Position numbers and translations under genes: made by a program. From a virus, in the IMG/VR virus record IMGVR_UViG_3300029448_000323, positions 1 through 27,723 of that record: a stretch of 27,723 bases of DNA. The stretch is one strand, 5' to 3'. This document shows, piece by piece, positions 1 to 27,723 of this stretch (positions within the stretch are counted from its first letter, which is position 1; each line of letters opens with the position of its first letter). Below the pieces are notes generated by a model. That model searched no databases. It was not told the origin of the DNA and was given only the letters and a program-made list of their open reading frames with translations.

Positions 1-212
1 AACTAGCTATCAATGGACTCAAAGCTCAATACGATAACGTACAAGGATACGAAGGAAGAATGCTAAGTGGCAAAGCACCTAGGACTTCAGGTGATGTATA
101 TAGAAGTCAAGCAGAAGTAGTCAAAGCTATGAGTGATCCTCAATATGATGATGATCCAGCTTATAGACAAGACGTAATGAACAAACTAGCTAGATCAGAC
201 GTTCAATTCTAA
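1..212 (+). CDS. Capsid assembly scaffolding protein, C-terminal end (T7 gp9-like), 5' truncated by the window
   Basis: The frame is open from base 3 to the TAA at 210-212 and encodes about 69 residues, ending in RQDVMNKLARSDVQF. Scaffold proteins of T7-like phages organise major capsid subunits inside the procapsid and leave before DNA packaging; their functional capsid-binding part is the C-terminus, which is what is visible here. The assignment rests on the charged, helical C-terminal style (AEVVKAMSDPQYDDDPAYRQDV) and on the position just upstream of the capsid gene, as in T7. The N-terminal part is outside the window, so length and start cannot be judged. The next gene starts 2 bases after the stop. 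Confidence 0.75.
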   Translation, partial: LAINGLKAQYDNVQGYEGRMLSGKAPRTSGDVYRSQAEVVKAMSDPQYDDDPAYRQDVMNKLARSDVQF

Positions 213-214
213 TT

Positions 215-352
215 ATGAGTATTCAATCTGAATTTAAAAGCAACTGGAAATCTATTAAACATGCAGTTAACGAAGTAAAGAAAGCTGCATCTACTAGAAG
301 CTCATCCTATAAAAAAGAGATGGGACCATACCTTAAGAAAAAGAAAAGGTAA
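215..352 (+). CDS. Small basic hypothetical protein (45 aa)
   Basis: A short ORF begins 2 bases after the scaffold stop and ends with a TAA that overlaps the ATG of the hli gene (TAATG), so translation is probably coupled to both neighbours. It encodes 45 residues, MSIQSEFKSNWKSIKHAVNE to a C-terminus of GPYLKKKKR, and is strongly basic at its end. No membrane segment or known motif is visible. Its tight packing between two recognisable genes supports it being real. Function unknown; a small nucleic-acid or capsid-associated peptide is possible but unsupported. Confidence 0.6.
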   Translation: MSIQSEFKSNWKSIKHAVNEVKKAASTRSSSYKKEMGPYLKKKKR

Positions 353-525
353 TGCCTGACAATTTACACGCAAACGAAACACCACCCCAACTAATGAACG
401 AAAAAGAATCCGAAGTACTACTACATGATGCTGAAGAGCTAAATGGTCGACTAGCAATGGTTGGCTTCATAGCAGCTCTTGGCTCATACGCTTGCACTGG
501 CATGATTATTCCAGGCATATTCTAA
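352..525 (+). CDS. hli: High-light-inducible protein (Hli/HLIP), one-helix chlorophyll-binding family
   Basis: Encodes 57 residues. Residues 28-40 carry the hallmark chlorophyll-binding motif of the family, AEELNGRLAMVGF (consensus ExxNGRxAMxGF), followed by a hydrophobic helix, IAALGSYACTGMIIPGIF. Known Hlips insert in the thylakoid membrane, bind chlorophyll and carotenoid and protect photosystems under stress. Cyanophages carry hli as an auxiliary metabolic gene, presumably to keep host photosynthesis running during infection. The gene starts inside the previous stop codon (TAATG) and lies between scaffold and capsid genes, so it is transcribed with late structural genes. No psbA accompanies it in this window. 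It contains one of only three CCWGG sites seen here (511-515). Identification is confident; the host benefit is inferred from the family. Confidence 0.93.
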   Translation: MPDNLHANETPPQLMNEKESEVLLHDAEELNGRLAMVGFIAALGSYACTGMIIPGIF

Positions 526-543
526 AACCCACACGTCCGTTCA

Positions 544-556
544 TCCATTTTATGGA
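544..556 (+). promoter_or_regulatory. Short inverted repeat in the hli-micropeptide gap
   Basis: Downstream of hli the sequence TCCAT-TTT-ATGGA forms a 5-bp stem (544-548 with 552-556). An alternative pairing, CGTCC at 534-538 with GGACG at 554-558, is also possible. No T-run follows, so it is not an obvious terminator. It may be a weak RNA structure in the leader of the following small genes. Confidence 0.2.
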
Positions 557-605
557 CGCATGAAACCAAGGCATGGAACGGGGTCTTGGTAGTTGAGGAT
601 TACTC

Positions 606-650
606 ATGAAAGTAACACTTACCTATCGCGGCGTAACTTACACAAAATAA
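606..650 (+). CDS. DUF4278-like micropeptide (14 aa), possibly a truncated gene
   Basis: ATG at 606 opens MKVTLTYRGVTYTK followed by TAA. This closely resembles the N-terminal signature (MxLTYRGxxY) of the DUF4278 proteins of marine cyanobacteria and their phages, as I remember the family. Only the signature remains; a typical member continues further. It could be a translated micropeptide, a decayed gene, or a leader. The stretch before it (560-605), with CAAGGCATGGAACGGGG, has no convincing longer ORF. The next gene begins 15 bases after the stop, beyond an AT-rich palindrome TTTTAATTAAAA (652-663). Confidence 0.4.
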   Translation: MKVTLTYRGVTYTK

Positions 651-665
651 CTTTTAATTAAAAAC

Positions 666-1022: not shown

Positions 1023-1024
1023 TT

Positions 1025-1183
1025 ATGGCACACCAATCCACTGATGGAAGGGCGCACTTGACGTCCTTCTCACCGGACCCTGTTGATACTAGCCCTAGTG
1101 ATCAACAACCTCCCGGTGTAGATAAGAAGAAAGAAGAGGTTGACTACAACTCTCTCGAGGAAGCACTTACAGGTGATTCGTAA
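1025..1183 (+). CDS. Small hypothetical protein with an MAHQ start resembling the capsid N-terminus
   Basis: ATG at 1025 follows the porin-like stop by 2 bases. It encodes 52 residues: a polar, Pro-rich first half (MAHQSTDGRAH, SPDPVDTSPSDQQPPG) and a charged second half (DKKKEEVDYNSLEEALTGDS). There is no signal peptide or membrane helix. The first residues (MAHQSTDG) resemble the start of the major capsid protein (MAHQTTSG) encoded 235 bases downstream, and the nucleotide sequence is also similar there. It is likely a small soluble, largely disordered protein of unknown role, possibly virion-associated given its position. Confidence 0.55.
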   Translation: MAHQSTDGRAHLTSFSPDPVDTSPSDQQPPGVDKKKEEVDYNSLEEALTGDS

Positions 1184-1301: not shown

Positions 1302-1328
1302 TTGGCATCAGCCCTCCAAGGAGGATAC

Positions 1329-1351: not shown

Positions 1352-1418
1352 AAGACCACAAAATTGATCAAACAATTACGCGTAAGAAAGATAAACATAC
1401 ATTTTTTATTCCATATTA

Positions 1419-2588
1419 ATGGCACATCAAACTACCAGTGGCTCTAACACAGCCCTGTTAACGGGACCGGGTGCTGATAATGGTGTTATCACCGCAGCAG
1501 GTGGGAATACCGCAACAGCAAACCGAAGAGCCCTTTACCTGAAATTGTTTTCAGGAGAAATGTTCAAGGGATTCCAGCGTAATACAATCGCTAGAGATCT
1601 TGTAACTAAGCGTACCCTAAAGAACGGTAAATCTTTACAGTTCATCTACACGGGTCGCACCACAGCTGAGTACCATACTCCGGGAAATTCCATACTAGGT
1701 AATAGTGATGGAGCACCTCCAGTAGCAGAGAAGACCATCACTTGTGATGACCTCTTAATCTCTAGTGCTTTCGTTTATGAATTAGATGAAACACTTGCGC
1801 ATTATGATCTACGTGGGGAAATTTCCAAGAAGATTGGTTATGCTCTAGCTGAAAATTATGATAGAAAGATCTTCCGCGCAATCTCTAAGGCTGCACGTAA
1901 AGCATCTCCTATCACTAAGGCTAACTACCTAGAACCGGGCGGAACACAAATCCGTGTTGGTACTGCTGCTCAACTTTCTGATGCTTATAATTCAGCAAAC
2001 TTGATCAATGCATTCTATGATGCAGCGGCAGCTCTAGATGAGAAAGGAGTTAGTTCTGAAGGACGCGTGGGCGTCTTAAACCCAAGACAATATTATGAAC
2101 TTATCCAAGCGGTAGGTACTAATGGTCTTGTTAATAGAGACGTACAGGGCGGAGCATTGCAGTCAGGTAACGGCATCATTGAAATTGCAGGTATCAAAAT
2201 CTTCAAGTCAATGAACATTCCTTTCTTCGGAAAGCATGGTACTATTTATGGTACAACTGCTGGTACTACAGACGCTAACGTAGCTTCTCCGGGTAATGTA
2301 GGTTCATTCGTTGGCGATGCCATGGTAGATGAGCACAACACTACTGAGAATGACTATGGTCAGGCTGCTAAGTTTGCTAATACTTGTGGACTTATCTTCC
2401 AGAAGGAAGCTGCAGGTGTTGTAGAAGCTATCGGACCACAGGTTCAGGTAACTTCTGGGGACGTTTCAGTCATCTACCAAGGAGATGTAATATTAGGAAG
2501 GCTCGCAATGGGGGCTGACTATCTTAACCCAGCTGCTGCAGTAGAATTGTTCGCAGGAACAGCTACAGCTCCAGCCGCATTCGGGTAA
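1419..2588 (+). CDS. Major capsid protein (T7 gp10-like)
   Basis: Encodes 389 residues, somewhat longer than T7 gp10A (345). It forms the icosahedral head shell with the HK97-type fold used by T7-like phages. Supporting features are the position after the scaffold gene and before tail tube A, the N-terminal stretch RRALYLKLFSGEMFKGFQRNTIARDLVTKRTLKNGKS followed by FIYTGRTTAEYHTPG, and the middle segment EGRVGVLNPRQYYELIQAVGTNGLVNRDVQGG, all in the style of T7-type capsid proteins. The start at 1419 has no good Shine-Dalgarno and is preceded by an AT-rich stretch (ATTTTTTATTCCATATTA). A strong terminator follows at 2612-2638. No capsid frameshift product such as T7 gp10B is evident. Confidence 0.93.
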   Translation: MAHQTTSGSNTALLTGPGADNGVITAAGGNTATANRRALYLKLFSGEMFKGFQRNTIARDLVTKRTLKNGKSLQFIYTGRTTAEYHTPGNSILGNSDGAPPVAEKTITCDDLLISSAFVYELDETLAHYDLRGEISKKIGYALAENYDRKIFRAISKAARKASPITKANYLEPGGTQIRVGTAAQLSDAYNSANLINAFYDAAAALDEKGVSSEGRVGVLNPRQYYELIQAVGTNGLVNRDVQGGALQSGNGIIEIAGIKIFKSMNIPFFGKHGTIYGTTAGTTDANVASPGNVGSFVGDAMVDEHNTTENDYGQAAKFANTCGLIFQKEAAGVVEAIGPQVQVTSGDVSVIYQGDVILGRLAMGADYLNPAAAVELFAGTATAPAAFG

Positions 2589-2611
2589 TATATTTTTTAA
2601 CCAACATACAT

Positions 2612-2638: not shown

Positions 2639-2642
2639 ATTT

Positions 2643-3284
2643 ATGGCTTCCACAACTATTGATACCGATACAGAACTATCCGCAGTTAACTCAATACTGG
2701 GAGCTATCGGTCAGTCACCCATATCAGTTCTTAAAGATCCTACTACAGGGGTAGTAACAAACGAAAACCCTGAGATATCATTCATCTATAATTTACTTAG
2801 AGATTCTAATGTTGACGTACAATCGGAAGGTTGGCACTTTAATACAGAGAAACATAAAGAGTATAACCCAGACGCTAACGATCAGATAGTGATAGGCAGT
2901 GACGTTATTAAAATGGACGTTGCTGATGGATGGTCACACAGACAATATGATGTAGTAAAAAGAGATGGATTCTTATACGACAAGTATGACCATACAAATC
3001 TATGGCCAGATGTAGCTAAGTTGTATTTAGATATAACTATGCTTATTCCATTTGAATCTATACCACTAGTATTCCAGAGATACATAACATACAGAGCATC
3101 TCGTATGGCTGCAACACAACTAGTAGCTAACCCTCAACTAGTTCAATTACTTCAGCAGCAAGAGACATTAGCACGAGCTGCTGTAATGGAATATGAATGT
3201 AACCAAGGTAATCACTCTATGATGGGGTTCCCTGAGGATACAGTTTATAGTACATATCAACCTTGGAGAGGATTAGTACGTTAA
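2643..3284 (+). CDS. Tail tubular protein A (T7 gp11-like)
   Basis: Encodes 213 residues from ATG 2643 (T7 gp11: 196). An upstream in-frame ATG at 2610 would run through the terminator hairpin and add an unlikely hydrophobic leader (MGVFGLPFFLF), so the internal start is preferred. Family-like segments include TELSAVNSILGAIGQSPIS near residue 11, SEGWHFNTEKH in the middle, and FQRYITYRASRMAATQL later. Gatekeeper proteins of this family join the portal to the tail nozzle and help retain DNA. The gene ends in TAATG, overlapping the start of tail tubular protein B. Confidence 0.9.
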   Translation: MASTTIDTDTELSAVNSILGAIGQSPISVLKDPTTGVVTNENPEISFIYNLLRDSNVDVQSEGWHFNTEKHKEYNPDANDQIVIGSDVIKMDVADGWSHRQYDVVKRDGFLYDKYDHTNLWPDVAKLYLDITMLIPFESIPLVFQRYITYRASRMAATQLVANPQLVQLLQQQETLARAAVMEYECNQGNHSMMGFPEDTVYSTYQPWRGLVR

Positions 3285-6148
3285 TGGCAAGTATCACACA
3301 GACCATACCTAATTATCAGGGTGGCATATCACAACAGCCTGACCAGATGAAATTTCCGGGACAGGTAAAGAATATTATAAATGGTATACCTGATGTTACT
3401 TACGGTTTATATAAGAGACCCGGTGGTGAAAGAGCAGGTGTAACTAAATTAGCTAATAGACAAGCAGGTGGAGCATGGTTCCACTACTACAGAGATGAGG
3501 CAGAGGGATCTTATATAGGACAAGTAGCAGCTAATGGTCAAGTAAGAGTTTGGAAAGCTTCTGGAGACAATCCCGGTGCTGAACAGACTGTAACTTATGG
3601 TACTGGTGGACAGACTGCTATAACAAACTACCTAACTTCTACTAGTGGTGAGAATATACAGACTCTAACTATTAATGATACTACTTTTATTAATAACAGA
3701 ATTAAAACTATTAGTACTACAGGTGCTACAGACAGCTATCAAGATGCTTACTTTGCATTTATAGAATTACTAAGAACTGAGAATGGTAGGCAGTATGCTT
3801 TAAATGTTTATAATGGAGAAACTACTACTACTATACCTAGAGCTACTAGAGTTAAAATTGCAAGTGATACATTAGATGAAGGAGCAGGTACTGCAACTTG
3901 TCCGGGTATTGTAACTCAAGTATTCAGTGTCAATGAAGGTAATGGTACTGGAGTAGGTAATGATAATGGTAAGAACTTAATCTTTAAAATCACTACACTA
4001 GGTCAGCAAGGCAGGCGTAATACTACAGATGATACTCCAAATGGTTCTGATTATGCATGTTCATATAATAGACAGCTGACATTATTACATGGTGGAGAAG
4101 GATATGATACTGGAGATCAGGTAACAGTTACTGCAGACCAAGCACAGACTGATTATAACTATACCATAGAAGTTACAGATCATGAGTCTGTACCTATTAA
4201 AGCTGATATCAAAGCTGTTAGACCTGCACCAACACCATTCGATGCTGATACAGCTGTAACAGTTGACACTATACTAGGAAGTCTAGTAGATGAACTCAGC
4301 GGTACTTCTGTATCTACTACTATTGTAGGTAATGGTATCTATTTATCTAGTAGCAGTGCTTTCCAAGTTGAGGTTGTAGATCAAGACTTAATGAGAGTCA
4401 TGCAGAAAGAAGTTAACGATGTTACTAAGCTACCTGCACAGTGTAAGGATGGCTACATTGTTAAGATATCTAACACCAGAATGTCAGATGAGGATGACTA
4501 CTATGTAAAGTTTGAGGGTACTAATGGTAAAGATGGACCCGGTTCATGGGTAGAGTGTCCAGCACCCGGTATAGTAAAAGGCTTTGATGCTAGTACTATG
4601 CCTGTTGTAGTACAAAGGACATCGCTAGCCAATGGTGGTACATCAACTGAGATAGCTACATTCACTGTTAAACAGTTTGAGTATGCTGAACGTGAGGTAG
4701 GAGATGATGTAACAAATCAAGCTCCTTCATTCTGTGGAACAAAGAACACTGCTGATCCTCCTGTATACTCACAAGATAGGACTATAAACAAAGTACTATT
4801 CTTTAGGAACAGACTAGCATTCTTATCAGGTAGTAGCGTTATATTATGTCAACCTAATACCGTAGCTAAGCCTAATTTCTGGGGTGCTACAGCTCTAACA
4901 GTTAGTGCTATAGACCCTATAGATATAGAGTGTAGTTCTACATTCCCTTCAGATTTATTTGATGGGATAGAAGTGACTACAGGCTTACTCTGTTTCAGTA
5001 CTAACCAGCAATTCTTACTATCTTCTGATGATACTGTATTGAATCCTGATACTGCTAAGTTAAGATCAGTATCTATGTTTAACTATAATGAAGTTATACC
5101 TCCTATCTCATTAGGTCAGACTATAGGATGGGTAGATAATTCAGGTAAGTATAGTAGATTTATGGAGAGTGCTAATATATTGAGAGAAGGAGAACCTACT
5201 GTATCAGATACAAGTAAAATTGTACCTAGTTTATTACCTAAAAGTATAGATTTATTCACCAATTCTAGGGAGAATAATCTTATATTCTTTGGTAAAACTG
5301 CTAGTAATGAAGTGATAGGATATAGATACTGGAATACACCTGACGGTAGACAGCAATCTGCATGGTTTAGATGGCATTTCAGAAACCCATTACTATACCA
5401 TTTCTGTATAGATGATACATATTACTTCTTAGATGATGATGGTTTTCTTCAGAGCATCAACCTAATACAAGCTGATGCTGACCCTTCTATAGATCAAGAT
5501 AGTATTAACTACCTTCTTCATTTGGATAACCATACTACTATATCTGGTGGTGTATATAATGCTACAACACAGCTCACTACCTTTACACATGGTACTGGTG
5601 GGTGTGTGTTCAACTGGCAATCAGATGTAGATACAGGTACTGGTACTAAGTTAGTACTTATTGATTCCGACTCAGGAGCTACTAGAGTAGGTAGGTATAC
5701 CGAATGCACTGTTACAAGTGCTGGAGCTACGTTCACTGTACCCGGTGAATGGACCGATACTTACCATATAGGGTATTTATATGATTACCAAGTAGAGTTC
5801 CCTAGAGTCTATAATACTAGGCAACAGGGTCAAGCTATTATATCTGAGATAAATGCATCCTTAATCCTACATAGATTGAAGCTAAACTTTGGTAAGATAG
5901 GTCTATATGAAACTACTATAACCAGAAAAGGGAAGCCTAATTATATTGAAGTATATGAGTCATCTGAACTAGATGAGTATGATGCTTCAGATGCTCCATA
6001 TTTGGAGGAAAAAATTCAGGCAGTTCCTATATATGAAAGAAATAAAAACGTAGGTATAATTTTAAAATCATCACACCCTGCACCAGCTACATTACATTCA
6101 ATGAGTTGGGAAGGTGATTTCTCACCGTTAACATATCAACGTGTCTAA
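3284..6148 (+). CDS. Tail tubular protein B (T7 gp12-like nozzle)
   Basis: Encodes 954 residues from ATG 3284 (T7 gp12: 794). The N-terminus MASITQTIPNYQGGISQQPD is the strongly conserved start of this family, followed by VNGx/KRPGGE-type sequence (NIINGIPDVTYGLYKRPGG). An in-frame ATG at 3263 lies inside the previous gene and gives an unlikely extension. The protein forms the hexameric nozzle beneath the gatekeeper and binds the tail fibres. The extra ~160 residues relative to T7 probably sit in beta-rich insertions such as the 200-350 region. The stop overlaps the GTG start of the next gene by 8 bases. Confidence 0.93.
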   Translation: MASITQTIPNYQGGISQQPDQMKFPGQVKNIINGIPDVTYGLYKRPGGERAGVTKLANRQAGGAWFHYYRDEAEGSYIGQVAANGQVRVWKASGDNPGAEQTVTYGTGGQTAITNYLTSTSGENIQTLTINDTTFINNRIKTISTTGATDSYQDAYFAFIELLRTENGRQYALNVYNGETTTTIPRATRVKIASDTLDEGAGTATCPGIVTQVFSVNEGNGTGVGNDNGKNLIFKITTLGQQGRRNTTDDTPNGSDYACSYNRQLTLLHGGEGYDTGDQVTVTADQAQTDYNYTIEVTDHESVPIKADIKAVRPAPTPFDADTAVTVDTILGSLVDELSGTSVSTTIVGNGIYLSSSSAFQVEVVDQDLMRVMQKEVNDVTKLPAQCKDGYIVKISNTRMSDEDDYYVKFEGTNGKDGPGSWVECPAPGIVKGFDASTMPVVVQRTSLANGGTSTEIATFTVKQFEYAEREVGDDVTNQAPSFCGTKNTADPPVYSQDRTINKVLFFRNRLAFLSGSSVILCQPNTVAKPNFWGATALTVSAIDPIDIECSSTFPSDLFDGIEVTTGLLCFSTNQQFLLSSDDTVLNPDTAKLRSVSMFNYNEVIPPISLGQTIGWVDNSGKYSRFMESANILREGEPTVSDTSKIVPSLLPKSIDLFTNSRENNLIFFGKTASNEVIGYRYWNTPDGRQQSAWFRWHFRNPLLYHFCIDDTYYFLDDDGFLQSINLIQADADPSIDQDSINYLLHLDNHTTISGGVYNATTQLTTFTHGTGGCVFNWQSDVDTGTGTKLVLIDSDSGATRVGRYTECTVTSAGATFTVPGEWTDTYHIGYLYDYQVEFPRVYNTRQQGQAIISEINASLILHRLKLNFGKIGLYETTITRKGKPNYIEVYESSELDEYDASDAPYLEEKIQAVPIYERNKNVGIILKSSHPAPATLHSMSWEGDFSPLTYQRV

Positions 6149-7178: not shown

Positions 7179-10136
7179 ATGACTACATCATTAAAAGATT
7201 TAATAGAAGCTACCACCTCATATAAGCTACCAGATATATCAGATACTAATAAATTAACATCCAATGATGGTAATCTGGTAGATGAAACTAACAAACAAAT
7301 AGAGGCAACAGCTAAGGCTGAGAAAGAAGAAGCTTCCTTATTTGCTAATTCTTTGAAAGACGTCTATGAATCCAAGAAGCAGAGGTATAATAAATTTGTT
7401 AATCTTATACCTCAAGCATATGGTTTGAAGAAGTGGATTGATGATGAAAATACAGCTAATTCTATCTTTGAAGAACATGAGAAACTCAGAGAAGAGATAG
7501 AAACTAACAGTAAATTATTTCCAAAAGGTAAGGAGTGGGAGTTTAAACTACAAGAGCATGACTATGATTGGGACATCAGTGACCCAACAAGTCCTCTTTT
7601 AAATTTTGAATATCCTGAAGACATTGAGTACAACGACGCTTTTAAATTAAACCAAGAAGTTAGAGCAGAACTAAATACAGAGTTAGATCTTTGGGGTAAA
7701 GGAGAATCTACTTTAAGTCCTCAAGAACTATATCTATTAACATCTGAAACACCTACAGGAAAAGAGATAGATAATAAAGCTGTATTCTTCTCTGGAACAA
7801 ATAGACAACTTGCTGGTAACTATCAACAGGTAATGGATTATGTCTTTGATAAGAATGATGTTTATTATTTAAACGCTCAAGGCGAACAGGTATTCATGCC
7901 TAGAGATATGAGTTATGCAGAAGCATTAAACTCAACCGATCAGTCAGATAATTTCTGGGTTCCATATCTTGAGAAAGCTATGTGGTCTCAATATTATGCA
8001 CACCTCAATAAAGATAATAATTTAGGTAGTTTAAGTAATCGTGAAATAAAGAATAAAATATTCAAACCTTGGCTTGCAGAGGTAGATAAAAATCGTGAAA
8101 CAATAGTAAATAGTTTACTTGATGATCGTTTAAAAAATGTTCAGAAAAGAAAAGCTCTTGATTTACTAGACGGATTAAGAAGTGAAGACCCTGTACTTGG
8201 TGGAGTAAATGCTGCATTAAACTGGGTATCAACTAATGAACTATTAGCTGATGGCACTAGGGATAATCAAAGAGGTTGGAACTCCTTACTTGAACAGCTG
8301 GAATACCTAGCTGATGAGGAAGAGGTAACAAGTGGAGAGCTATTCAGTTTACTTAGCACACCTTTTAGCCAAAGAGGTACTAATAAACAAACTACTATAG
8401 GACCAAGCTCCTTCAGTGATACAGGATTGAAACCTGAAATAGCAGCTAAAATATCGAAATTAGCTACAGACTTAAAGCTTAAAGAAAATCAACAAAGAGA
8501 AGCTTTAGAGAGCATGGCTATTGATGATAGGTATGCAGAGGTAACTAAAAGTATACTTGAGAGTATGTCCAGTGATGAACCTATGGATGATACTGCTATC
8601 GAAACACTGATAGGTAACGAAGTTAATGCTTTAAGTAAAGAATATGGTTTAGATCCATCAAGTCAAAAGTTTAATAAATTCAAAGCTTTACTTAATCGTA
8701 CAGGTTTAGCTGACGCTTATGATGCACATGATGATTTGACTAAATTATTAGCCGCTAATGTGCCTCTTGATTACAAACTGATAAATAGAATACCGAAAGA
8801 AGTAAGTCTGTTTGGTGGTAATGAAACCACTAGAGCTTATTGGGAAAGGATCGCTTTAAAACAAGGGGCTATAGGATTAAGTCCGGCCGAAGTAAAAGAT
8901 GTAGAACAACAAATCTTCAACGCTTCTAAAGATGTACCTATATTTAAGTATGATGCTAGTAAGAATCCAGATGGATCAATACAGCAACAGAATGCCGTAG
9001 CGAATGCAACAACAGTATTCTATAATAAATTTAATGAGTTATCATTTCAATATAGAGATCAGTTACGAACAGGTAATGCACAGGAAGTTTCAGATCTAGA
9101 GGCTACTATACGTCATGCTTCATTTCTTGCTGCCATAGAATCTTTCAATGTACCAGAATTACAAAGAGCTAATGTAAAACCATTACCTAAAGTAACTGCA
9201 ATTGGTACTAGTTTGAAAGATGTAGAAATAGAGCAGAATACAATAGCTGAAACATTTGATCAGCTTAACGGGTCTTATGAAGAAATAGTAGGATTACCAG
9301 AATACTGGAGTCCGGGTGAAGAACTTGCAATACAATCCTATTTACAATATAAGGCTAATCCTAAACAAGGAAGACGATGGGCATCTTACTATTATTATAC
9401 TACAAAGAATGGTAGGAAATTCCCTAACAAACCAATTAATGAGGTAATAGAAGCTAGAATAGCGGCTACTGCACACTTAAGAAAAGACGACGCACCACCA
9501 GTAGAAGATCCTACTTTAAAGAATCTAACTCAAAGTGAGATAGTAGATCTATGTACATTCCCTAGTGCAGCTAAGACCGCACAGAAGTTATGTTCTGCAC
9601 CTCAACACGCAGCTTGGATGCTAGAAGCTCTAGTAGACCCTGATGCTGATGATGGTATTAATACAGTAAGGATTCCAGGAAAAGGTAATGCTAGTGATGG
9701 TTATGAGAAGCTACCTAATGGTAAAACTCTACAAACAAATACACTAGCTGAAGTTTTACAGTATGCTGTACTGAATCCGAGTGCAATGTTTGGTAAATAT
9801 GGTTTAACATTAGATGCTATAACAGATCAGATTACAGCACAAGGAGCTACAATAAATGGTGATATGTTATTCGATGAAGCTCTTCAACAGCAACTAATGT
9901 TAGGGAGGATATTACAGAGAGCTAATAAGGATAGTCAGTATGGAAGCTTCAACCAACAATTCAGGAGAGTAAATTATTTAAGACCAGAATTACAACAACA
10001 GTTTTATCAGATTGTTAATACTGAAGGCAGATCTGAAGCTGCTGCTAAGTTTTTCAATTCCCCCTATAATCAAATACACACACTATCAAGCGAAGCTGCT
10101 AAGGTACTTGCTGATATGTCACTAGAACTAAACTAA
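7179..10136 (+). CDS. Internal virion protein C (T7 gp15-like)
   Basis: Encodes 985 residues, larger than T7 gp15 (747). The protein is polar and mostly helical, Asn/Lys/Glu-rich, with no signal peptide and no obvious enzyme motif. The call rests on size and position between gp14-like and gp16-like genes. In T7, gp15 and gp16 form the inner core that is ejected and spans the periplasm as the DNA translocation tube. A strong Shine-Dalgarno 5 bases upstream supports ATG 7179. A gap of 16 bases separates it from the next gene. Confidence 0.82.
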   Translation: MTTSLKDLIEATTSYKLPDISDTNKLTSNDGNLVDETNKQIEATAKAEKEEASLFANSLKDVYESKKQRYNKFVNLIPQAYGLKKWIDDENTANSIFEEHEKLREEIETNSKLFPKGKEWEFKLQEHDYDWDISDPTSPLLNFEYPEDIEYNDAFKLNQEVRAELNTELDLWGKGESTLSPQELYLLTSETPTGKEIDNKAVFFSGTNRQLAGNYQQVMDYVFDKNDVYYLNAQGEQVFMPRDMSYAEALNSTDQSDNFWVPYLEKAMWSQYYAHLNKDNNLGSLSNREIKNKIFKPWLAEVDKNRETIVNSLLDDRLKNVQKRKALDLLDGLRSEDPVLGGVNAALNWVSTNELLADGTRDNQRGWNSLLEQLEYLADEEEVTSGELFSLLSTPFSQRGTNKQTTIGPSSFSDTGLKPEIAAKISKLATDLKLKENQQREALESMAIDDRYAEVTKSILESMSSDEPMDDTAIETLIGNEVNALSKEYGLDPSSQKFNKFKALLNRTGLADAYDAHDDLTKLLAANVPLDYKLINRIPKEVSLFGGNETTRAYWERIALKQGAIGLSPAEVKDVEQQIFNASKDVPIFKYDASKNPDGSIQQQNAVANATTVFYNKFNELSFQYRDQLRTGNAQEVSDLEATIRHASFLAAIESFNVPELQRANVKPLPKVTAIGTSLKDVEIEQNTIAETFDQLNGSYEEIVGLPEYWSPGEELAIQSYLQYKANPKQGRRWASYYYYTTKNGRKFPNKPINEVIEARIAATAHLRKDDAPPVEDPTLKNLTQSEIVDLCTFPSAAKTAQKLCSAPQHAAWMLEALVDPDADDGINTVRIPGKGNASDGYEKLPNGKTLQTNTLAEVLQYAVLNPSAMFGKYGLTLDAITDQITAQGATINGDMLFDEALQQQLMLGRILQRANKDSQYGSFNQQFRRVNYLRPELQQQFYQIVNTEGRSEAAAKFFNSPYNQIHTLSSEAAKVLADMSLELN

Positions 10137-10152: not shown

Positions 10153-13100
10153 ATGGATGAGACAGAATCCCAAATAGGAGGATTAGATCTAGAAGGCTTA
10201 ACGCAGGACATTGATCCTGCAGCCTTACTAGAACAAGATCAGAAAGGTTGGCTACAAACTAGAGAACAAGAGAACCAAATTGTAGAGCAAAACCAAGACC
10301 CACGTAATCAAGAAGGTGGTGGAGGTGTTGCAGGTGTAGCCAAAGAGATACAATCTGCTGTTGTAGGAGGTTTACAAGATACCCTACATTCTGTACAAAC
10401 TTTACCTGAACGTGCCGTTGATATGGTGTCAGGGGAGATGCAGCAGGAGAGAAAAGAGAAAGGTTATTATGAACCTGAGTGGTCACCATTCCGTGACGAA
10501 GATAATCCAATTATAACAAATACATGGTGGGGTAATCTACTAAGAGGTACTGTACACTTTGGTTCTATGGCTGCAGGTATTACCGCAGCAGGAGCAGCAG
10601 CAGGTATAACAGCACCAGCATCCTTAACTGGATTAGCTGGTTGGAGTCTCATAAGAGCTGCTGGTATAGGTGCTATAGCTGATACTATATCACATACTTC
10701 CGATGGTGAGAACGTGTTAGGAATGATGCGAGATCGCTATGGTTGGATGGATACACCGTTAAGTACAAAAGATACAGATCATCCTATCTGGATGAAATTT
10801 AAGAATATTGTAGAAGGTATGGGTATTGGTCTTGTCTTTGATAGTGCTAGTATGGCATTAGGAAAAGGTAATAGATATGTCCGTAATCAGATAAAGAATA
10901 GAGCAGAGGGTGTTGAAATAGAAACAGTTAGGAAAGGTATCGCAGAGATAAGAAACTTTGAAGATAAATTCCGTGCTTCTAAAAATGCACCTCAAGCAGG
11001 TTCTCACCAAGGTAACCACTTATCCCAAGATGATCCATACGTTGTATGGGAAAGACAAAAGAAAATTAATGGTGGTGAATGGGGAGCTGAAGATGGAACT
11101 GCTGGTACAGTAACTACACCTGTAATGAAAGAGAGGATTGCTAGACAATCTGGTTTATCTGAAGAATTAGTAGAAGATGTATTGCGTAAACTCTATAGTT
11201 CAGAGAAATTTAAGAAGGTTCTTGAAGCAGTTAATGGCAGTAAAGAGAGATTAATGGAAGTATTTGGTGATGCTATAGCTGCTCATCAAAGAATTACAGC
11301 TGGTCGTAATGCTGCTGATATGTCAGCTTCTGAGTATCTTAAAGAAATCTTTGAAACATCACAAAGGTTTGATGTAACAGACATAACAGGTGCTAAAATA
11401 GATGAACTTACTACCATTACAGCTAAGAATGTTGTAGTTAGTGACCTTGTTGTAGCTACTTTATTACAAGAATTAAGAGATAGAGGTATTGCAGGTAGAG
11501 AAATATTCAACTTTGCCAACGTTGCTGATATAGATGGACCTGCAGAACAGATAGTAGATACTATGTTAACTGCTATTTCAGAATCTAAAAGAGCTAAATA
11601 TACATTATCTAGACAGTTTGCTGCTTTAGGTGCTAAAGATGTTCAAGTAATGAATACTACAATAGCTCAAGAAGTGGCAGATGCTAGAGAACAGATCCAA
11701 ACTATCCTGAAAATAGCTAATGAAGATAAGGATGGTGATTTAATGTTAGCTATGTTTGAAGCTTTCTCCTCAATGAAGACAGTTAATAATGTAGATGATT
11801 TTGTTCACTGGGCTCGTAAGATGATTACTGGTGGTGACATTGAAGGTAAATATAATACTGGAGCTATGGTTAGAGAGCTTCAAGGTATGATGATACACAG
11901 CGTTCTAAGCAGCCCTAAGACTCCTATAAGAGCTTTAATGGGTACAAGTATAGCAACCTTTACTAGACCTTTTAACACAGTTTTAGGGGCTACGATGATG
12001 GGTGATATGACTACTGCTAGGGCTGGGTTAGCTTCAATGAATGCTATGATGGAATCAATACCAGAAGCTTGGACTCTATTCAGAGCTAAATTAGATGGAT
12101 ATTGGAGTGGAGATATATCTACAATTAAATCACGTTTCCAAGAATACACTAAAGGAGATGATAACTGGGAAATACTAAGACGATTCTCTGAAAGTCCAGA
12201 AGCCAGTGTAGGAGATAAGGCAGCATTTGCCGTAGCTAATATGGCTAGGAGTGCTAATAACTCTAACTTCCTAACTTACTCTACTAAGCTCATGGCAGCT
12301 ACAGATGATAGTTTTAGATATATCCTAGGTAGAGCTAAGATGAGAGAGAAAGCTTTCCTTTCAGCTTACGATGCTAAGACAGCAGGACAGCTAACAGCTT
12401 ATTCTGATCTATCTCCTGAACTAATAAAAGTATATGAAGAAGATTTCTATAGTCAAATATTTGATGCTAATGGTAACTTACTAGATGCTGCGACTAAATT
12501 TGCTGCTCAAGAAGTAACCCTTACTCAACCTTTAACTGGGTTTGCTAAGAATCTAAACGCTGTATTCCAACAGAATCCATGGGCTAAACCTTTCTTTCTA
12601 TTCGCAAGAACAGGTGTAAATGGTTTAAACTTAACAGCTAAACACACTCCTCTCTTCAATTTCTTTGTTCAAGAATGGAATGAAATAGCTTTTGCTAGAC
12701 CTGATAATGCACGGTCTATGGAGAAAGTAGCTAAATATGGTATAACATCAGTACAGGAATTAAAGAACGCTAAGGCATTACAAGTAGGTAGACTAGCCAT
12801 GGGTTCGTCTGTCATTGCTATGACATCTTGGGCTTGGATGAATGGTAGAATAACAGGTAATGGTCCTGCAGATAGACAGACTAAACAAGCTTGGATAGAT
12901 GCTGGATGGAAACCCAGAATGTATGAACCTTTACCCGGAGTTAGTTTTAACTATGACACTATAGAACCATTCAATCAGATAATGTCTATTGTTTGTGATA
13001 TAGGTGATGCTAGCCAATTGATGGGTGACGAATGGACCGAAAGAGAATTACAAAAGATATCACTAGTAGTAGCTCAAGGTCTAACTTCTAAATCTTACCT

Positions 13101-13854
13101 AGCTGGTATGTCTCAATTCGTAGATTTATTTGGTGGAAAACCCGGAGCAATGGCTAATATAGTTAGTGGTCTTATGAATAACCAGATACCACTTGCTAGT
13201 CTTAGGAAGGATTTAGGTAAAGTATTCACACCATATACTAGAGAACTTAATTCCGGTATAGTCCAATCATTAAGGAACAGGAACTTATTATTTGAGAATC
13301 TTCCCGGAGAAGATTTAGCAATTAAATATTCTATAATGGATGGTCAACCACTTAAAAACTGGAGACCCGTAGAAAGATTCTTTGGAGAACTGTTCCCATT
13401 TGGTATATCTTTTAATCATAGTCCCGGCCAAGAATTTCTATTCAACTCTGGTTTTGATATGAGAGCATCAGTGCTATCCTCACCCGGTCCTAATAGTATA
13501 GATTTAAGTAGATCACCTGCTATTAGATCTAAATTCCAGAGAGCTATTGGTTTACAAAACTTTGGTGCTAAGTTAGAAGTACTTTCTAAGCAACCAAGAA
13601 TTATAGAATCTATGGCATTAAGACAGAATGATATTAATTCTGGTAATAGAGGAGAGTATGAGAATAGAGATTATTACCATAATATAATGATAAGAGAATT
13701 GATAGATAGATTAAGAAACATAGCTTGGGAATCCATTAAAGATGATCCTGTAGTTATGGCTGAAGCTACTAAACAATTCAAACAAAAAGAATTAAGATTA
13801 AAGAAGAAACGTCAATCTTTAGGAGTCCAACCCCTCCTCTCAATGTATAAGTAA
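10153..13854 (+). CDS. Internal virion protein D (T7 gp16-like), without a recognisable transglycosylase domain
   Basis: Encodes 1233 residues (T7 gp16: 1318), the largest gene here. The N-terminus (residues 1-60) is acidic and Gln-rich. Residues 128-178 form an Ala/Gly-rich hydrophobic stretch (LLRGTVHFGSMAAGITAAGA and onward) likely to insert in membrane. The rest is helical with a basic end (KQKELRLKKKRQSLGVQPLL). T7 gp16 starts with a lytic transglycosylase domain that opens peptidoglycan during DNA entry; I see no such catalytic segment (Glu within an SLT-type motif) here. The assignment therefore depends on size and order: after gp15-like, before the fibre. The start has AAGG 5' of ATG 10153. 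Confidence 0.82.
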   Translation: MDETESQIGGLDLEGLTQDIDPAALLEQDQKGWLQTREQENQIVEQNQDPRNQEGGGGVAGVAKEIQSAVVGGLQDTLHSVQTLPERAVDMVSGEMQQERKEKGYYEPEWSPFRDEDNPIITNTWWGNLLRGTVHFGSMAAGITAAGAAAGITAPASLTGLAGWSLIRAAGIGAIADTISHTSDGENVLGMMRDRYGWMDTPLSTKDTDHPIWMKFKNIVEGMGIGLVFDSASMALGKGNRYVRNQIKNRAEGVEIETVRKGIAEIRNFEDKFRASKNAPQAGSHQGNHLSQDDPYVVWERQKKINGGEWGAEDGTAGTVTTPVMKERIARQSGLSEELVEDVLRKLYSSEKFKKVLEAVNGSKERLMEVFGDAIAAHQRITAGRNAADMSASEYLKEIFETSQRFDVTDITGAKIDELTTITAKNVVVSDLVVATLLQELRDRGIAGREIFNFANVADIDGPAEQIVDTMLTAISESKRAKYTLSRQFAALGAKDVQVMNTTIAQEVADAREQIQTILKIANEDKDGDLMLAMFEAFSSMKTVNNVDDFVHWARKMITGGDIEGKYNTGAMVRELQGMMIHSVLSSPKTPIRALMGTSIATFTRPFNTVLGATMMGDMTTARAGLASMNAMMESIPEAWTLFRAKLDGYWSGDISTIKSRFQEYTKGDDNWEILRRFSESPEASVGDKAAFAVANMARSANNSNFLTYSTKLMAATDDSFRYILGRAKMREKAFLSAYDAKTAGQLTAYSDLSPELIKVYEEDFYSQIFDANGNLLDAATKFAAQEVTLTQPLTGFAKNLNAVFQQNPWAKPFFLFARTGVNGLNLTAKHTPLFNFFVQEWNEIAFARPDNARSMEKVAKYGITSVQELKNAKALQVGRLAMGSSVIAMTSWAWMNGRITGNGPADRQTKQAWIDAGWKPRMYEPLPGVSFNYDTIEPFNQIMSIVCDIGDASQLMGDEWTERELQKISLVVAQGLTSKSYLAGMSQFVDLFGGKPGAMANIVSGLMNNQIPLASLRKDLGKVFTPYTRELNSGIVQSLRNRNLLFENLPGEDLAIKYSIMDGQPLKNWRPVERFFGELFPFGISFNHSPGQEFLFNSGFDMRASVLSSPGPNSIDLSRSPAIRSKFQRAIGLQNFGAKLEVLSKQPRIIESMALRQNDINSGNRGEYENRDYYHNIMIRELIDRLRNIAWESIKDDPVVMAEATKQFKQKELRLKKKRQSLGVQPLLSMYK

Positions 13855-21400: not shown

Positions 21401-21957
21401 GAGCACCAATTTATGCTGAAGAGGGAGAAACCAACAATACTTCAAACCCTGTGGCAGCGGCTACAGGAAACGTTACAAATCAAGCCGTCCAGTTCCAGAA
21501 TAACGGAGCCCCTTCGCGTCAGGTATACGGACCCAACATAAGTTGTAACGGATCAACTATGACCTTCTCACCATTCTATATGGGGAATCATACCTCTCCT
21601 TATGATGATACTATGGCTCAACAGAGCTATACTGTAGCTGAAAACTGGGGATTCCAAGTGAATTTTATGGTTCCTTTAGATAGAGAAGGTTTAAATAGAT
21701 GTAGAGCTATAGCTGCTCAACAACATGAAAAGATGAAGTTGAATTATGAACTAGTTAGAATTGATAACTGTGCTAAACTTCAACAGAAAGGATTCATGTT
21801 AATGCCCGGGTCACGGGTATGGCATCTTTGTAGTGATGTAATTCCTATAGTTGCATTTAAAAAAGCAGAACAAAAGGTACTTGCATGTAAAGAGCCACCA
21901 AAGCCTTGGTATAAACCTTGGCAGAAAACTAATAAATGCCCATTAAAAAATGATTGA
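21037..21957 (+). CDS. Exported hypothetical protein in the -1 frame; start uncertain
   Basis: The frame is open for 306 codons from ATG 21037 to 21957. Convincing protein sequence appears only from about 21349: an Arg-rich, then hydrophobic, segment (RNRHYLYYGIIISILTIGAPIYA) reads like a signal peptide, then GNVTNQAVQFQNNGAPSRQVY, ISCNGSTMTFSPFYMGNHTSPY, and a Cys-containing C-terminal half (RCRAIAAQQHEKMKLNYELV; NCAKLQQKGFML; HLCSDVIPIVAF). No ATG, GTG or TTG lies in this frame between GTG 21193 and that segment. The start may be 21037, 21193, a rare codon, or the result of a -1 frameshift from the preceding gene. The residues encoded before 21349 look like out-of-frame translation. Function unknown. 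Confidence 0.5.
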   Translation: MAFTLSTVLPLGSKSRVSHAPIHPRVDELNNDYNSRDCGGNNHHNLWVSLKQVEWGQYNPYLHLIRRNSGFRFGIQHDNSWFRLLFRSNNKSSKSGTRSNRNRSRNRHYLYYGIIISILTIGAPIYAEEGETNNTSNPVAAATGNVTNQAVQFQNNGAPSRQVYGPNISCNGSTMTFSPFYMGNHTSPYDDTMAQQSYTVAENWGFQVNFMVPLDREGLNRCRAIAAQQHEKMKLNYELVRIDNCAKLQQKGFMLMPGSRVWHLCSDVIPIVAFKKAEQKVLACKEPPKPWYKPWQKTNKCPLKND

Positions 21958-22711
21958 ACCACCATCCATAAATGAAGAAATCGAATTAGATGCTAGAAAA
22001 GTTGGAGTATTCGATTTTATATCCCCCGCACATGTAGAAGAACTAGTTACAGAAATCAATTGGCACAGAGGTAATGGTAGCCTTGCAGATGGGGTGGAAA
22101 GTGTCAAATCCAATAACAGAGAAGCAGTAGCAGTATTAAAAGTTAGCAAACAAGCTTCCTTACTTCACGGTATGGGTACTTTTTGGGATAGAGTAGAATC
22201 TCCAGAGTGGATTCACTTTGTATGTCAAAAAGGTAATACACATCCAATGTTTAGTATAACTCAAGAAGGAGGTTATTATAGAGCACATTTTGATGCACCC
22301 CAGAATGGTCACTTTAGTAATACATTAATTCTTAGTGATCCTGATGAATATGAAGGCGGTGAATTAGAAATATTAATTGATGGAGAAATTAACCAATTTA
22401 AAGTTAATTCTGGTCAAGTAGTTAGCTATGAAACTGGATTAGCTCATCAAGTTCGACCTGTAACTAAAGGAGAACGTAAAGCTCTAATATGGTGGACTCA
22501 TAGTCTGATTCCTAATATGACTGATCTTTATGCTTGGAGGACTTTAAGAAGCCTTGGACTAGAAGGTGAAGGTCCATATCCAAGAAACATTGAAGATGTC
22601 ACAGATGATTTATATGAATTTGTTAGAAAACCACATTGTATATACACTCAAGCAGCTAATAATATAATTAGAAAACACCTATACACTATGTCAAACGCTC
22701 CCTTAATTTAA
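21950..22711 (+). CDS. 2OG-Fe(II) oxygenase, PKHD/PiuC-like
   Basis: Encodes 253 residues, overlapping the previous stop by 8 bases. The double-stranded beta-helix core is visible: YYRAHFDAPQ gives the iron ligands H113 and D115; FSNTLILSDPDEYEGGELEI is the typical middle strand pair; LAHQVRPVTKGERKALIWW gives the distal His166 and the 2-oxoglutarate-binding Arg176. This order and spacing match PiuC/PKHD hydroxylases. Substrate unknown; host proteins, phage virion proteins or small molecules are all possible. A second oxygenase lies at 23742. Confidence 0.85.
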   Translation: MIEPPSINEEIELDARKVGVFDFISPAHVEELVTEINWHRGNGSLADGVESVKSNNREAVAVLKVSKQASLLHGMGTFWDRVESPEWIHFVCQKGNTHPMFSITQEGGYYRAHFDAPQNGHFSNTLILSDPDEYEGGELEILIDGEINQFKVNSGQVVSYETGLAHQVRPVTKGERKALIWWTHSLIPNMTDLYAWRTLRSLGLEGEGPYPRNIEDVTDDLYEFVRKPHCIYTQAANNIIRKHLYTMSNAPLI

Positions 22712-23032: not shown

Positions 23033-23226
23033 TGGCAAAATCAGGAGCCTCTAAAGGGGCTAAAACAATTAAACCCTTTGATGATCAAGATACAAAACTA
23101 GCACAGGGCAAGATGCCTGACCATGTTTTTGAATCTATCCAGAGACAGTATGGTAACAAAAAATATGGTAAATATACCATTGAGGATAAGAAAAACGTTA
23201 TCAACTGGCATAAAAAGAAAGTATAA
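23032..23226 (+). CDS. Small basic hypothetical protein (64 aa)
   Basis: Overlaps both neighbours by TAATG. Encodes 64 residues, with MAKSGASKGAKTIKPFDDQD at the start and VFESIQRQYGNKKYGKYTIED KKNVINWHKKKV at the end; Lys-rich, soluble. Directly precedes the small terminase gene and is presumably expressed with it. Function unknown. Confidence 0.6.
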   Translation: MAKSGASKGAKTIKPFDDQDTKLAQGKMPDHVFESIQRQYGNKKYGKYTIEDKKNVINWHKKKV

Positions 23227-23495
23227 TGGAACAGGTCAGAATACTTCCAAAGAAGGCTACTGAAGATAAGTTTAATGAGTTACATAACCTCGTCACTGAA
23301 GACTTTCTAAGGAGAGTCAGAAGTGGTGAGGCTAGTACACAAGACTTGAAAGCTGCATGTGATTGGCTTAAAACCAATGATATCACAGGTGTAGCTTATG
23401 ATGGTAGTCCTTTAGATAAATTAAGTAAAATTCTACCTAAAGTCGATCCTGAATTAGTAAAGAGGAGAATGTATGGCTCCAAAACGAGCGTCTAA
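23226..23495 (+). CDS. Small terminase subunit (T7 gp18-like)
   Basis: Encodes 89 residues, the same length as T7 gp18. The segment KFNELHNLVTEDFLRRVRSGEASTQDLKAACDWLKTNDI has the helix-turn-helix-like composition common in phage small terminases, followed by VAYDGSPLDKLSKILPKVDP. Position between lysis-type and packaging genes supports it. It would recognise phage DNA and load the large terminase (27227). Overlaps the next gene by 23 bases. Confidence 0.75.
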   Translation: MEQVRILPKKATEDKFNELHNLVTEDFLRRVRSGEASTQDLKAACDWLKTNDITGVAYDGSPLDKLSKILPKVDPELVKRRMYGSKTSV

Positions 23496-23745
23496 ACCCG
23501 GTAAGACTTCTAGGTATTACCAATCTGCTAAAGGTCGGAAGTCCTACAATAAGCAGAAAAAGAAACAAAAGAAAATTAACAGCACCGCTACTAAACGAAA
23601 GTATCGTAAGCTATTGGCACGTAAGCGTCGTCAACTAGGTATTATGGGTAAAGGCGGTAAAGATGTCAGTCATACGAGTAAAAATCGTACTAAACTAGAG
23701 ATTCCTAAGAAAAATAGAGCTCGAGGAGGAGCTAAACGTAAATGA
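23473..23745 (+). CDS. Highly basic protein with HNH-like remnant
   Basis: Encodes 90 residues, about 40% Lys/Arg. Near the end, MGKGGKDVSHTSKNRTKLEIPKKNRARGGAKRK follows the spacing of short HNH-like phage proteins (DVSH...N...NRARGG) but the full nuclease motif is not present. Strong positive charge points to DNA or RNA binding. It starts inside the small terminase gene and ends in ATGA at the next gene. A packaging or virion-DNA role is possible from context only. Confidence 0.6.
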   Translation: MAPKRASKPGKTSRYYQSAKGRKSYNKQKKKQKKINSTATKRKYRKLLARKRRQLGIMGKGGKDVSHTSKNRTKLEIPKKNRARGGAKRK

Positions 23746-24314
23746 CCGATCACATCCTACATTCACCCGGAGTCTTATCACAAGAAACCTGTAGTAGTGT
23801 AATTAACACCTTTGAGCATAATAAAGAGTTACAACAAGAAGGTAGATTTGGTGCAGGTATATTAGACCATGAATTAAAGAAATGTACTGAAATGTTTGTA
23901 GACTATAAACGTGATACAGATTTCTATCTTTATGTTGTAAAATATCTAAAAGCTAGTATAGAGGAATATAAACAAATATATCCTTATATAGATAAACTAG
24001 CACATTGGGAAATACTTGAAACATTTAAAATACAAAAATATTTACCTAATGAAGGTTACTTTAGAACTCACTGTGAAAACGAAGGTCAACTAGATGGGAG
24101 CCATAGAAGAGTACTAGCATGGATGATTTATCTAAACGAAGTACTAGATGGCGGACATACACAATTCCCTTCTCAAAACAAAGCATTCCAACCTAGAACA
24201 GGTGATATATTAATATGGCCAGCTGGCTTCACACATCCACACCATGGAGTTACAAGCGAAACACAAACAAAATACATTGCCACTGGTTGGTATTCACATA
24301 CTGAAACAAAATGA
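23742..24314 (+). CDS. 2OG-Fe(II) oxygenase, prolyl-4-hydroxylase type
   Basis: Encodes 190 residues; ATGA overlaps at both ends. The core reads LPNEGYFRTHCENEG (metal-binding H110-x-E112, where a Glu replaces the usual Asp), RRVLAWMIYLNEVLDGGHTQFPSQ (middle strands), PRTGDILIWPAGFTHPHHG (distal His among 165/167/168) and TKYIATGWY (2OG-binding Lys177). The HxE is compatible with iron binding in this phage-type subfamily. Substrate unknown. Second oxygenase in this window and not a close relative of the one at 21950. Confidence 0.85.
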   Translation: MTDHILHSPGVLSQETCSSVINTFEHNKELQQEGRFGAGILDHELKKCTEMFVDYKRDTDFYLYVVKYLKASIEEYKQIYPYIDKLAHWEILETFKIQKYLPNEGYFRTHCENEGQLDGSHRRVLAWMIYLNEVLDGGHTQFPSQNKAFQPRTGDILIWPAGFTHPHHGVTSETQTKYIATGWYSHTETK

Positions 24315-26526: not shown

Positions 26527-26538
26527 CACACAACTATT

Positions 26539-26904
26539 ATGACAGTATCCTCAGACAGACGTAAAGCAGCCAATGAAAGACGAAGAAAGAATCGGAAATC
26601 ATTGTCTGTAAAAAATAAACCTAGTATGCCTCATCTTGAAGGTAGAAACTTTACTGGGTCAAAGAGTACTAAACCTAAGAAAGAAAAAGAAGAGTGGAAA
26701 GAATCTGAAGCTTCTAAAAAGCGTAGAAAATTTCTTAGAATAGGTGCAGCTATAGCTGAAGCTGCTGGCGGCACAGATTATGCAAAAGAAGCAGCAAGTG
26801 GTGAGACAATTAACCTAGGTAAAAAAGATAAGAAGAAGAAGAAAAAGAATAAAGGTTACATAAAAACTCACGTTAAAAATGACGGCTCTACTAAAATGTA
26901 TTAA
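26539..26904 (+). CDS. Lys/Arg-rich hypothetical protein (121 aa)
   Basis: Encodes 121 residues, dominated by charged runs (KAANERRRKNRKSLSVKNKP; KPKKEKEEWKESEASKKRRK; KKDKKKKKKNKGYIKTHVK) around a short, more hydrophobic centre (FLRIGAAIAEAAGGTDYA). Starts 13 bases after the previous stop. Likely nucleic-acid binding or DNA-packaging related, by charge only. Confidence 0.6.
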   Translation: MTVSSDRRKAANERRRKNRKSLSVKNKPSMPHLEGRNFTGSKSTKPKKEKEEWKESEASKKRRKFLRIGAAIAEAAGGTDYAKEAASGETINLGKKDKKKKKKNKGYIKTHVKNDGSTKMY

Positions 26905-26906
26905 CT

Positions 26907-27230
26907 ATGGCTAAACAAGGAGAACTCTTTCCAGATGATAAGCCTAAGAAAAAAAGACCACGTAGAAAATCTAACAGTCAATCACTAGAAGAAAGAGCTA
27001 AAAAAAGAAGACAACGTAAGCAGCAAGCAGATGTATTAAATGATGCTGCAGAAAGACAAAGAGCAGAACAAGAGTATTGGAAGAAAACTAATAAAGAACG
27101 TGAGGAGAAATCTAAGAAAAGATTGAATATAGATTATCTGAAAATACTACAAGCTGTACCCGCTAAAGCTGGTGCTTTTGGCAGAGCACTTTTAACTATA
27201 GCAGGAGCTGGTGGTGGAATGTACAGATGA
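26907..27230 (+). CDS. Basic coiled-coil-like protein with hydrophobic C-terminus (107 aa)
   Basis: Starts 3 bases after the previous stop. Residues 10-75 are Lys/Arg/Glu-rich and probably one long helix (LEERAKKRRQRKQQADVLND; ERQRAEQEYWKKTNKEREEK), and residues 87-107 are hydrophobic and Gly-rich (KAGAFGRALLTIAGAGGGMYR). The stop overlaps the large terminase start (ATGA). Function unknown; coupling to terminase suggests a packaging or lysis link. Confidence 0.6.
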   Translation: MAKQGELFPDDKPKKKRPRRKSNSQSLEERAKKRRQRKQQADVLNDAAERQRAEQEYWKKTNKEREEKSKKRLNIDYLKILQAVPAKAGAFGRALLTIAGAGGGMYR

Positions 27231-27723
27231 ACAATACTTTATCCTCCCTACAGCAAGACTTCAAGCTCTTCCTACAAGCCCTGTGGGATCAGCTTGATCT
27301 ACCTTCCCCAACACGAGCTCAGTATTCTATAGCCGATTACTTACAGTATGGACCAAAGAGATTACAGATCCAAGCCTTTCGAGGTGTTGGTAAATCTTGG
27401 ATTACTGGTGCTTTTGTGTTATGGACACTCTTTAATGACGCAGAAAGAAAGATAATGATCATATCAGCCTCCAAAGAGAGAGCTGATAACATGTCAATTT
27501 TCCTACAAAAACTAATCATTGAAACACCATGGCTCAATCATCTCAGACCGAAAGCAGACGATTCACGTTGGAGTCGCATCAGCTTCGACGTTCTTTGTTC
27601 TCCACACCAAGCCCCAAGCGTAAAGTCGGTGGGAATAACTGGGCAGCTAACAGGAAGTCGCGCAGATTTAATGATCTTGGACGACATAGAGGTTCCTGGA
27701 AATTCCATGACGGAGTTAATGCG
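27227..27723 (+). CDS. Large terminase subunit (T7 gp19-like), 3' truncated by the window
   Basis: ATG at 27227 overlaps the preceding TGA; 165 residues are visible before the window ends. The ATPase motifs are clear: Walker A-type QAFRGVGKSWITGAF at about residues 49-63 and Walker B LMILDDIE near residues 148-155. The region KIMIISASKERADNMSIFLQK between them is typical of T7-type terminases. The enzyme is the packaging motor and, through its missing C-terminal nuclease domain, cuts the concatemer. Contains the third of only three CCWGG sites in the window (27695-27699). Confidence 0.92.
   Translation, partial: MNNTLSSLQQDFKLFLQALWDQLDLPSPTRAQYSIADYLQYGPKRLQIQAFRGVGKSWITGAFVLWTLFNDAERKIMIISASKERADNMSIFLQKLIIETPWLNHLRPKADDSRWSRISFDVLCSPHQAPSVKSVGITGQLTGSRADLMILDDIEVPGNSMTELM

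Follow-up and report, generated by a model that had tools for sequence, protein, structure and literature searches.

In coliphage T7, CCWGG occurs twice against 83 expected, six of the seven Pro-Gly dipeptides are written with CCS, and outside Pro-Gly there is one CCWGG against 47.5 expected and one CCSGG against 19.7. Having only two sites, too few and too widely spaced, T7 is resistant to EcoRII, and the principle of site avoidance has been known since this phage. The two motif classes CCWGG and CCSGG are covered by a single enzyme family, MvaI (CCWGG)/BcnI (CCSGG), PF15515. Prochlorococcus is commonly said to have few restriction systems. In prokaryotic viruses, the loss of short recognition sites is described as an anti-restriction strategy (Rusinov et al. 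2018, PMC6286503), and BcnI is reported to recognise CC^SGG (PMC4081073).

The stretch of DNA analysed here (the window, 27,723 bp) is a whole IMG/VR virus record. Judged from its gene content, the window, which comes from a marine virus of picocyanobacteria, represents the half of a T7-like cyanopodovirus genome that encodes virion and packaging functions; its genes for capsid, tail, internal virion and terminase proteins are of T7 type and have their kin in P-SSP7 and P-GSP1 (Table 1). Its capsid protein is 70-78% identical to those of P-SSP7, P-GSP1, NATL2A-133 and S-SBP1. A 985-aa protein of the window gave no matches in the phage records by tblastn.

Table 1 Features and recognition sites of the window
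Feature	Position	Strand	Remarks
Residual CCWGG (CCAGG)	511..515		between annotated ORFs; CCTGG at the aligned position of relative L003
Major capsid protein (T7 gp10-like)	1419..2588	+	four in-frame CCGGG: 1467, 1680, 1935, 2289
Tail protein gene	3263..6148	+	seven CCSGG, every one Pro-Gly: 3356, 3419, 3572, 3902, 4538, 4565, 5741
Residual CCWGG (CCAGG)	9675..9679	+	Pro-Gly codons CCA GGA
Internal virion protein	10153..13854	+	five CCCGG at Pro-Gly: 12934, 13141, 13303, 13423, 13483
CCCGGG	21805..21810	+	overlapping CCCGG/CCGGG at a Pro-Gly
2OG-Fe(II) oxygenase gene	21950-22711		close to the terminase genes
Terminase small subunit (DNA_Packaging_2)	23226..23495	+
2OG-Fe(II) oxygenase gene	23742-24314		close to the terminase genes
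Terminase large subunit, gene start	27227..27721	+	continues past the window end
Residual CCWGG (CCTGG)	27695..27699	+	Pro-Gly in the terminase large subunit

Depletion of CCWGG in the window and its W-avoiding relatives

The window has nearly lost CCWGG, probably as an escape from CCWGG-directed restriction. Only three sites are present, at 511, 9675 and 27695, exactly where the earlier note had placed them, against 37.5 expected from trinucleotide composition over the whole window (1..27723), a depletion of about 12-fold. CCSGG is enriched about 3.4-fold (29 sites against 8.5 expected), comprising 18 CCCGG and 11 CCGGG, two of which overlap at 21805/21806; the note's count of about 28 stands, but several of its coordinates are 1-2 bases off. 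The suspected depletion also survives a codon-preserving shuffle, in which the proteins and codon usage are kept: the coding regions hold 2 CCWGG against 32.1±3.3 in the shuffles, the lowest count among 2,000 of them being 21, and 28 CCSGG against 7.0±2.5.

CCC or CCG is used in 26 of the 28 Pro-GGN dipeptides of the window compared with 27 of the 299 Pro codons before other codons, so the bias noticed earlier is real and CCT and CCA do dominate elsewhere, while the figure of about 27 in 30 given for Pro-Gly has to be corrected. No comparable shift before GGN was found for the Ala, Thr, Val, Leu and Ser codons. As the note had also stated, there is no avoidance of GATC (97 sites against 110 expected). 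Outside Pro-Gly, in the other two frames, CCWGG is absent from the window against 8.5 expected, and its observed/expected ratio is 0.06, compared with 0.70-1.37 for the twelve motifs that differ from it by one substitution.

The same pattern is found in related phages that avoid CCWGG (W-avoiding). In eight complete or near-complete W-avoiding genomes pooled, CCWGG occurs 3 times against 297 expected (ratio 0.01), once in each frame against 176, 44 and 77 expected. CCC or CCG is preferred before GGN only, as the earlier reading would have it, in P-GSP1 (21/21 before GGN, 62/411 elsewhere) and in P-SSP2 (26/26 and 73/452). Neither of the two outcomes that the note had named as refuting was seen. 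Depletion in all three frames indicates an effect on the DNA site rather than a codon-pair bias. A translational bias, with the ribosome or tRNA pool disfavouring CCT or CCA before GGN, would be in keeping with the finding that, by number, most of the effect lies at Pro-Gly codon pairs; however, the motif is missing to the same degree from the other frames, the conserved dipeptides are written with the opposite codons in close relatives, and hosts show no such depletion. The 1,161 CCWGG counted in Prochlorococcus loci totalling 1.1 Mb stand against 1,226 expected, which excludes host codon bias. Given the out-of-frame depletion and the opposite preference in relatives, such a bias was rejected, and we give it next to no probability. 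CCSGG is about 2-fold enriched outside Pro-Gly in the W-avoiding genomes (79 against 35); overlapping sites explain only part of this enrichment, which is a weak point of explanation by restriction.

Forced choice at Pro-Gly and its reversal among relatives

Pro-Gly is encoded by CCN-GGN and is therefore each time either CCWGG or CCSGG, with CCGG lying inside each CCSGG, so that a phage is unable to avoid both motifs without changing its proteins. Where CCSGG or CCGG is the avoided motif, phages retain CCWGG at Pro-Gly (P-SSP7, 22 against 20.1 expected; 9515-10a, 35 against 29.7) and have it reduced outside Pro-Gly (7 against 17.2 and 5 against 16.5, respectively). With avoidance outside Pro-Gly and a forced choice within it, the Pro-Gly bias is what a wider avoidance of the site necessarily leaves behind. 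At conserved Pro-Gly sites, CCS is found at 254 of 256 positions in W-avoiding and CCW at 177 of 182 in S-avoiding relatives, a comparison that is partly circular, as the same counts defined the classes.

Related loci were drawn from IMG/VR by capsid, RNA-polymerase and terminase anchors. Among the 168 loci that are 5 kb or longer and contain five or more CCNGG sites, 71 are without CCWGG, 55 are without CCSGG and 42 lack neither, with median G+C of 0.402, 0.392 and 0.437, respectively; as low G+C also reduces CCSGG, the class without CCSGG is, for short loci, less certain than that without CCWGG. In a separate test, which included isolates and again required 5 kb or more, CCWGG was significantly depleted in 96 of 209 loci. 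The class without CCSGG is mixed, containing CCGG-free Tangaroavirus and CCSGG-poor P-SSP7-like phages. The Tangaroavirus isolates (L082, L085, L086 and L087) have no CCGG against 34-42 expected, and in three P-SSP7-like genomes pooled CCSGG occurs 2 times against 23.6, with CCGG only mildly low. CCGG in place of CCSGG as the target of this class thus holds in Tangaroavirus and fails in P-SSP7-like phages.

Other palindromes are lost as well. GGCC is absent from P-GSP1 (L089; 33 expected), as is CCWGG, and both are absent from its relatives L093-L118 and L173-L193; GCGC is also absent from a few loci (L193, L163) and from near-complete G009. NATL1A-7 has 3 GCGC against 23 expected, and segments of the T4-like cyanophages P-SSM2 and P-SSM4 (L383, L384) have neither CCGG nor GCGC. 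Within each lineage several palindromes are avoided at once, and that the lost palindromes differ from lineage to lineage is as expected under a changing set of host restriction systems.

The CCWGG-free isolates P-SSP2, P-SSP3 and P-GSP1 belong to the Prochlorococcus-infecting group, and five Synechococcus podoviruses (S-SBP1, S-RIP2, S-TIP37, Syn5 and S-CBP1) have near-normal CCWGG. P-GSP1 and P-SSP2 have 0-1 CCWGG sites, compared with 35 in P-SSP7. According to the records, the host of P-SSP2 is Synechococcus and that of its near-twin P-SSP3 is Prochlorococcus MIT9312. P-GSP1 is a MED4 phage, as is P-SSP7, and the two avoid different motifs; the laboratory host therefore does not predict the class, which is another weak point of explanation by restriction.

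On the capsid tree, the state of lacking CCWGG changes at least 14 times, an approximate number, as capsid genes may recombine. The window clusters with L001, L002 and L003 (support 99), all of which keep CCWGG. Each of the four Pro-Gly sites in the capsid gene is written CCG in the window and CCA (CCAGG) in its two nearest relatives, L001 and L002; CCC is the codon of most W-avoiding relatives at three of them. This distribution of codons points to an independent and fairly recent purge of CCWGG in the window, made by A-to-G changes, of which the three sites still present may be remnants; at the position aligned with the CCTGG at 27695, CCC or CCG is present in 42 of 42 W-avoiding relatives.

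If the hosts methylate CCWGG, sites could also decay through deamination of 5-methylcytosine, for which the presence of Dcm-like enzymes and Vsr in hosts speaks. Its products CTWGG and CCWAG, however, are barely raised in the pool (1.12 and 1.08), and the changes hit the central W base and are synonymous, as with CCA and CCG at the four capsid sites of L001/L002 and the window. Mutational decay is thus disfavoured by the nearly unchanged CTWGG and CCWAG, and we consider it very improbable.

Candidate systems in hosts and phages

C5 methyltransferases are present in 59 of 400 picocyanobacterial-family genomes, and some of them adjoin HaeII-, TdeIII-, EcoO109I- or BsaWI-like nucleases. A Dcm-like methyltransferase was found in 11 of 266 genomes of the Prochlorococcus genus group (about 4%; one genome per species, many incomplete), a prevalence that seems little for so complete an avoidance and counts against explanation by restriction. 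Ten of the 11 matches are 72-100% identical to the Dcm-like query, and the eleventh is 54% identical and has an internal stop. One of these host proteins (L366:8693-9811) is 56% identical to E. coli Dcm and has the Dcm catalytic core and target-recognition region, sharing the block GNGFG...RTLSARY.KDGAEILI. The Dcm-like enzymes of Prochlorococcus are candidate CCWGG methyltransferases. A Vsr gene is also present in all 11 genomes, and an AIPR gene of a Mza-type cluster in 5 of the 11. In the two islands read over their whole length (L366 and L367), the gene order is Vsr, Dcm-like, MzaB, MzaC, MzaD, MzaE, integrase and tRNA-Thr. On the L366 island, which encodes HATPase_c_3, Z1, DUF4420 and AIPR domains, PADLOC matched MzaB-E and MTase_II in a row of genes (MzaD weakly, 5e-11).

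The islands span L366:8234-18503 and L367:8515-18977, with a tyrosine integrase and a tRNA-Thr/tRNA-Tyr site; L366 has a further tRNA-Thr at the opposite end (1371-1443). A protein of about 690 aa with a C5-methyltransferase domain, distinct from the Dcm-like enzymes, is encoded in L359, L361, L362 and L363 (Prochlorococcus G239, G277, G288 and G136) at about 360-400 kb, a contig position near that of the Dcm-like islands, with Vsr several kb off. This region may be a hot spot that houses alternative defence systems.

A search of 400 picocyanobacteria for the EcoRII C-terminal domain gave one weak match (E about 1e-6), a 313-aa ORF of Prochlorococcus AG-347-K18 (L364:38-979), whose product could be a CCWGG nuclease of a natural host. 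PF15515 (MvaI/BcnI) was not found in the phages and seven cyanobacterial genomes searched, a weak negative, as the control genomes were silent too.

The avoided motif might instead reflect the phages' own weapons, that is, a phage nuclease specific for CCWGG (for CCSGG or CCGG elsewhere) that degrades host or rival DNA, the phage's own sites being purged for immunity. Mirror-image classes in close relatives and near-zero counts fit such a self/non-self rule, under which the classes would be mutual-exclusion types. In several podovirus isolates a small HNH nuclease gene adjoins the small terminase gene; the HNH proteins, however, occur across the classes and none was found among the packaging genes of the window, and with P-SSP7 and P-GSP1 copies 78% identical and the avoided motifs different, this nuclease was rejected as the cause. 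Moreover, no gene family tracks the CCWGG trait over the loci or over 22 complete or near-complete genomes, where, short 44-aa frames aside, none is present in 8-9 of the 9 W-avoiding and in none of the 13 other genomes. Each lineage avoids multiple palindromes together, and 19 of the 20 phages searched are without a C5 methyltransferase. Phage-encoded nucleases are therefore an unlikely cause. The single phage C5 cytosine methyltransferase (L333:1237-2076; contig G006, locus L153) lies beside the DNA polymerase of a T7-like phage that avoids CCSGG. In P-SSP7, L081:1845-2423 is annotated as a DNA methyltransferase, yet no Pfam family matches it at thresholds up to E 0.1.

Host Dcm-like methyltransferases are also compatible with recognition of CCWGG that is unrelated to restriction or depends on methylation, for instance where phage DNA methylated by Dcm is acted on by a regulatory protein or a type IV nuclease, and the depletion by itself looks alike whether unmodified or modified sites are cut. 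On the other side, the avoidance of CCSGG, CCGG, GGCC and GCGC in kin fits ordinary picocyanobacterial type II systems (HaeII-, TdeIII- and BsaWI-like). We regard recognition of this kind as improbable.

Probable escape from host restriction and comparison with known systems

The reading of the earlier note, restriction-site avoidance, is supported by the motif-exact, frame-independent depletion and by plausible cognate Dcm-like enzymes in candidate hosts. We infer that restriction drives the purge, with the Dcm-like systems acting on CCWGG and one such system present in the host population of the window. In part of a Prochlorococcus-like host population, unmodified CCWGG in injected phage DNA would be the target of a defence made up of a Dcm-type C5 methyltransferase with a partner nuclease, or of an EcoRII-like enzyme. 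The lineage of the window would have purged CCWGG by synonymous substitution, removing sites outside Pro-Gly through ordinary changes of this kind. Within Pro-Gly, a change of CCW into CCS would be the sole way out, hence the accumulation of CCC and CCG there. Relatives facing CCGG- or CCSGG-directed host systems would make the reverse change, and lineages would alternate between the states as the host systems that they encounter change, Pro-Gly allowing just these two sites.

About two fifths of the sampled relatives have lost CCWGG, a loss that is close to complete, exact to the motif and reversed time and again, which suggests that CCWGG-directed defence acts on the phages of Prochlorococcus as an ecologically strong force. 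As Pro-Gly can only be CCWGG or CCSGG, the genetic code leaves a phage open to one of two restriction-enzyme families. The avoided motif may therefore serve as a readout, from sequence alone, of the host defences recently faced by a wild phage lineage. No earlier report of such CCWGG/CCSGG avoidance in cyanophages was found among open-access papers, and within these the Pro-Gly-forced choice between two states and the frequent flipping of lineages seem to be new. The principle of site loss is shared with PMC6286503, in which a search by term turned up neither cyanophages nor Prochlorococcus nor CCWGG.

Like the window, T7 belongs to the T7 family, is nearly free of CCWGG and writes Pro-Gly mostly with CCS. 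Unlike the window, in which GATC is normal and CCSGG enriched, T7 avoids GATC as well as CCSGG outside Pro-Gly; a further feature of the present case is that the sister lineages of the window hold the opposite state. The motif pair of the MvaI/BcnI family equals the phage classes seen here. On the host side, the Prochlorococcus islands resemble the Dcm-Vsr system of E. coli in encoding Vsr and a Dcm-like methyltransferase with a conserved target-recognition region; whereas dcm adjoins only vsr in E. coli K-12, in Prochlorococcus the pair is joined by a GHKL ATPase, Z1, DUF4420 and AIPR genes near tRNA-Thr and an integrase, and these islands are predicted to encode homologues of MzaB-E of Mza-type defence.
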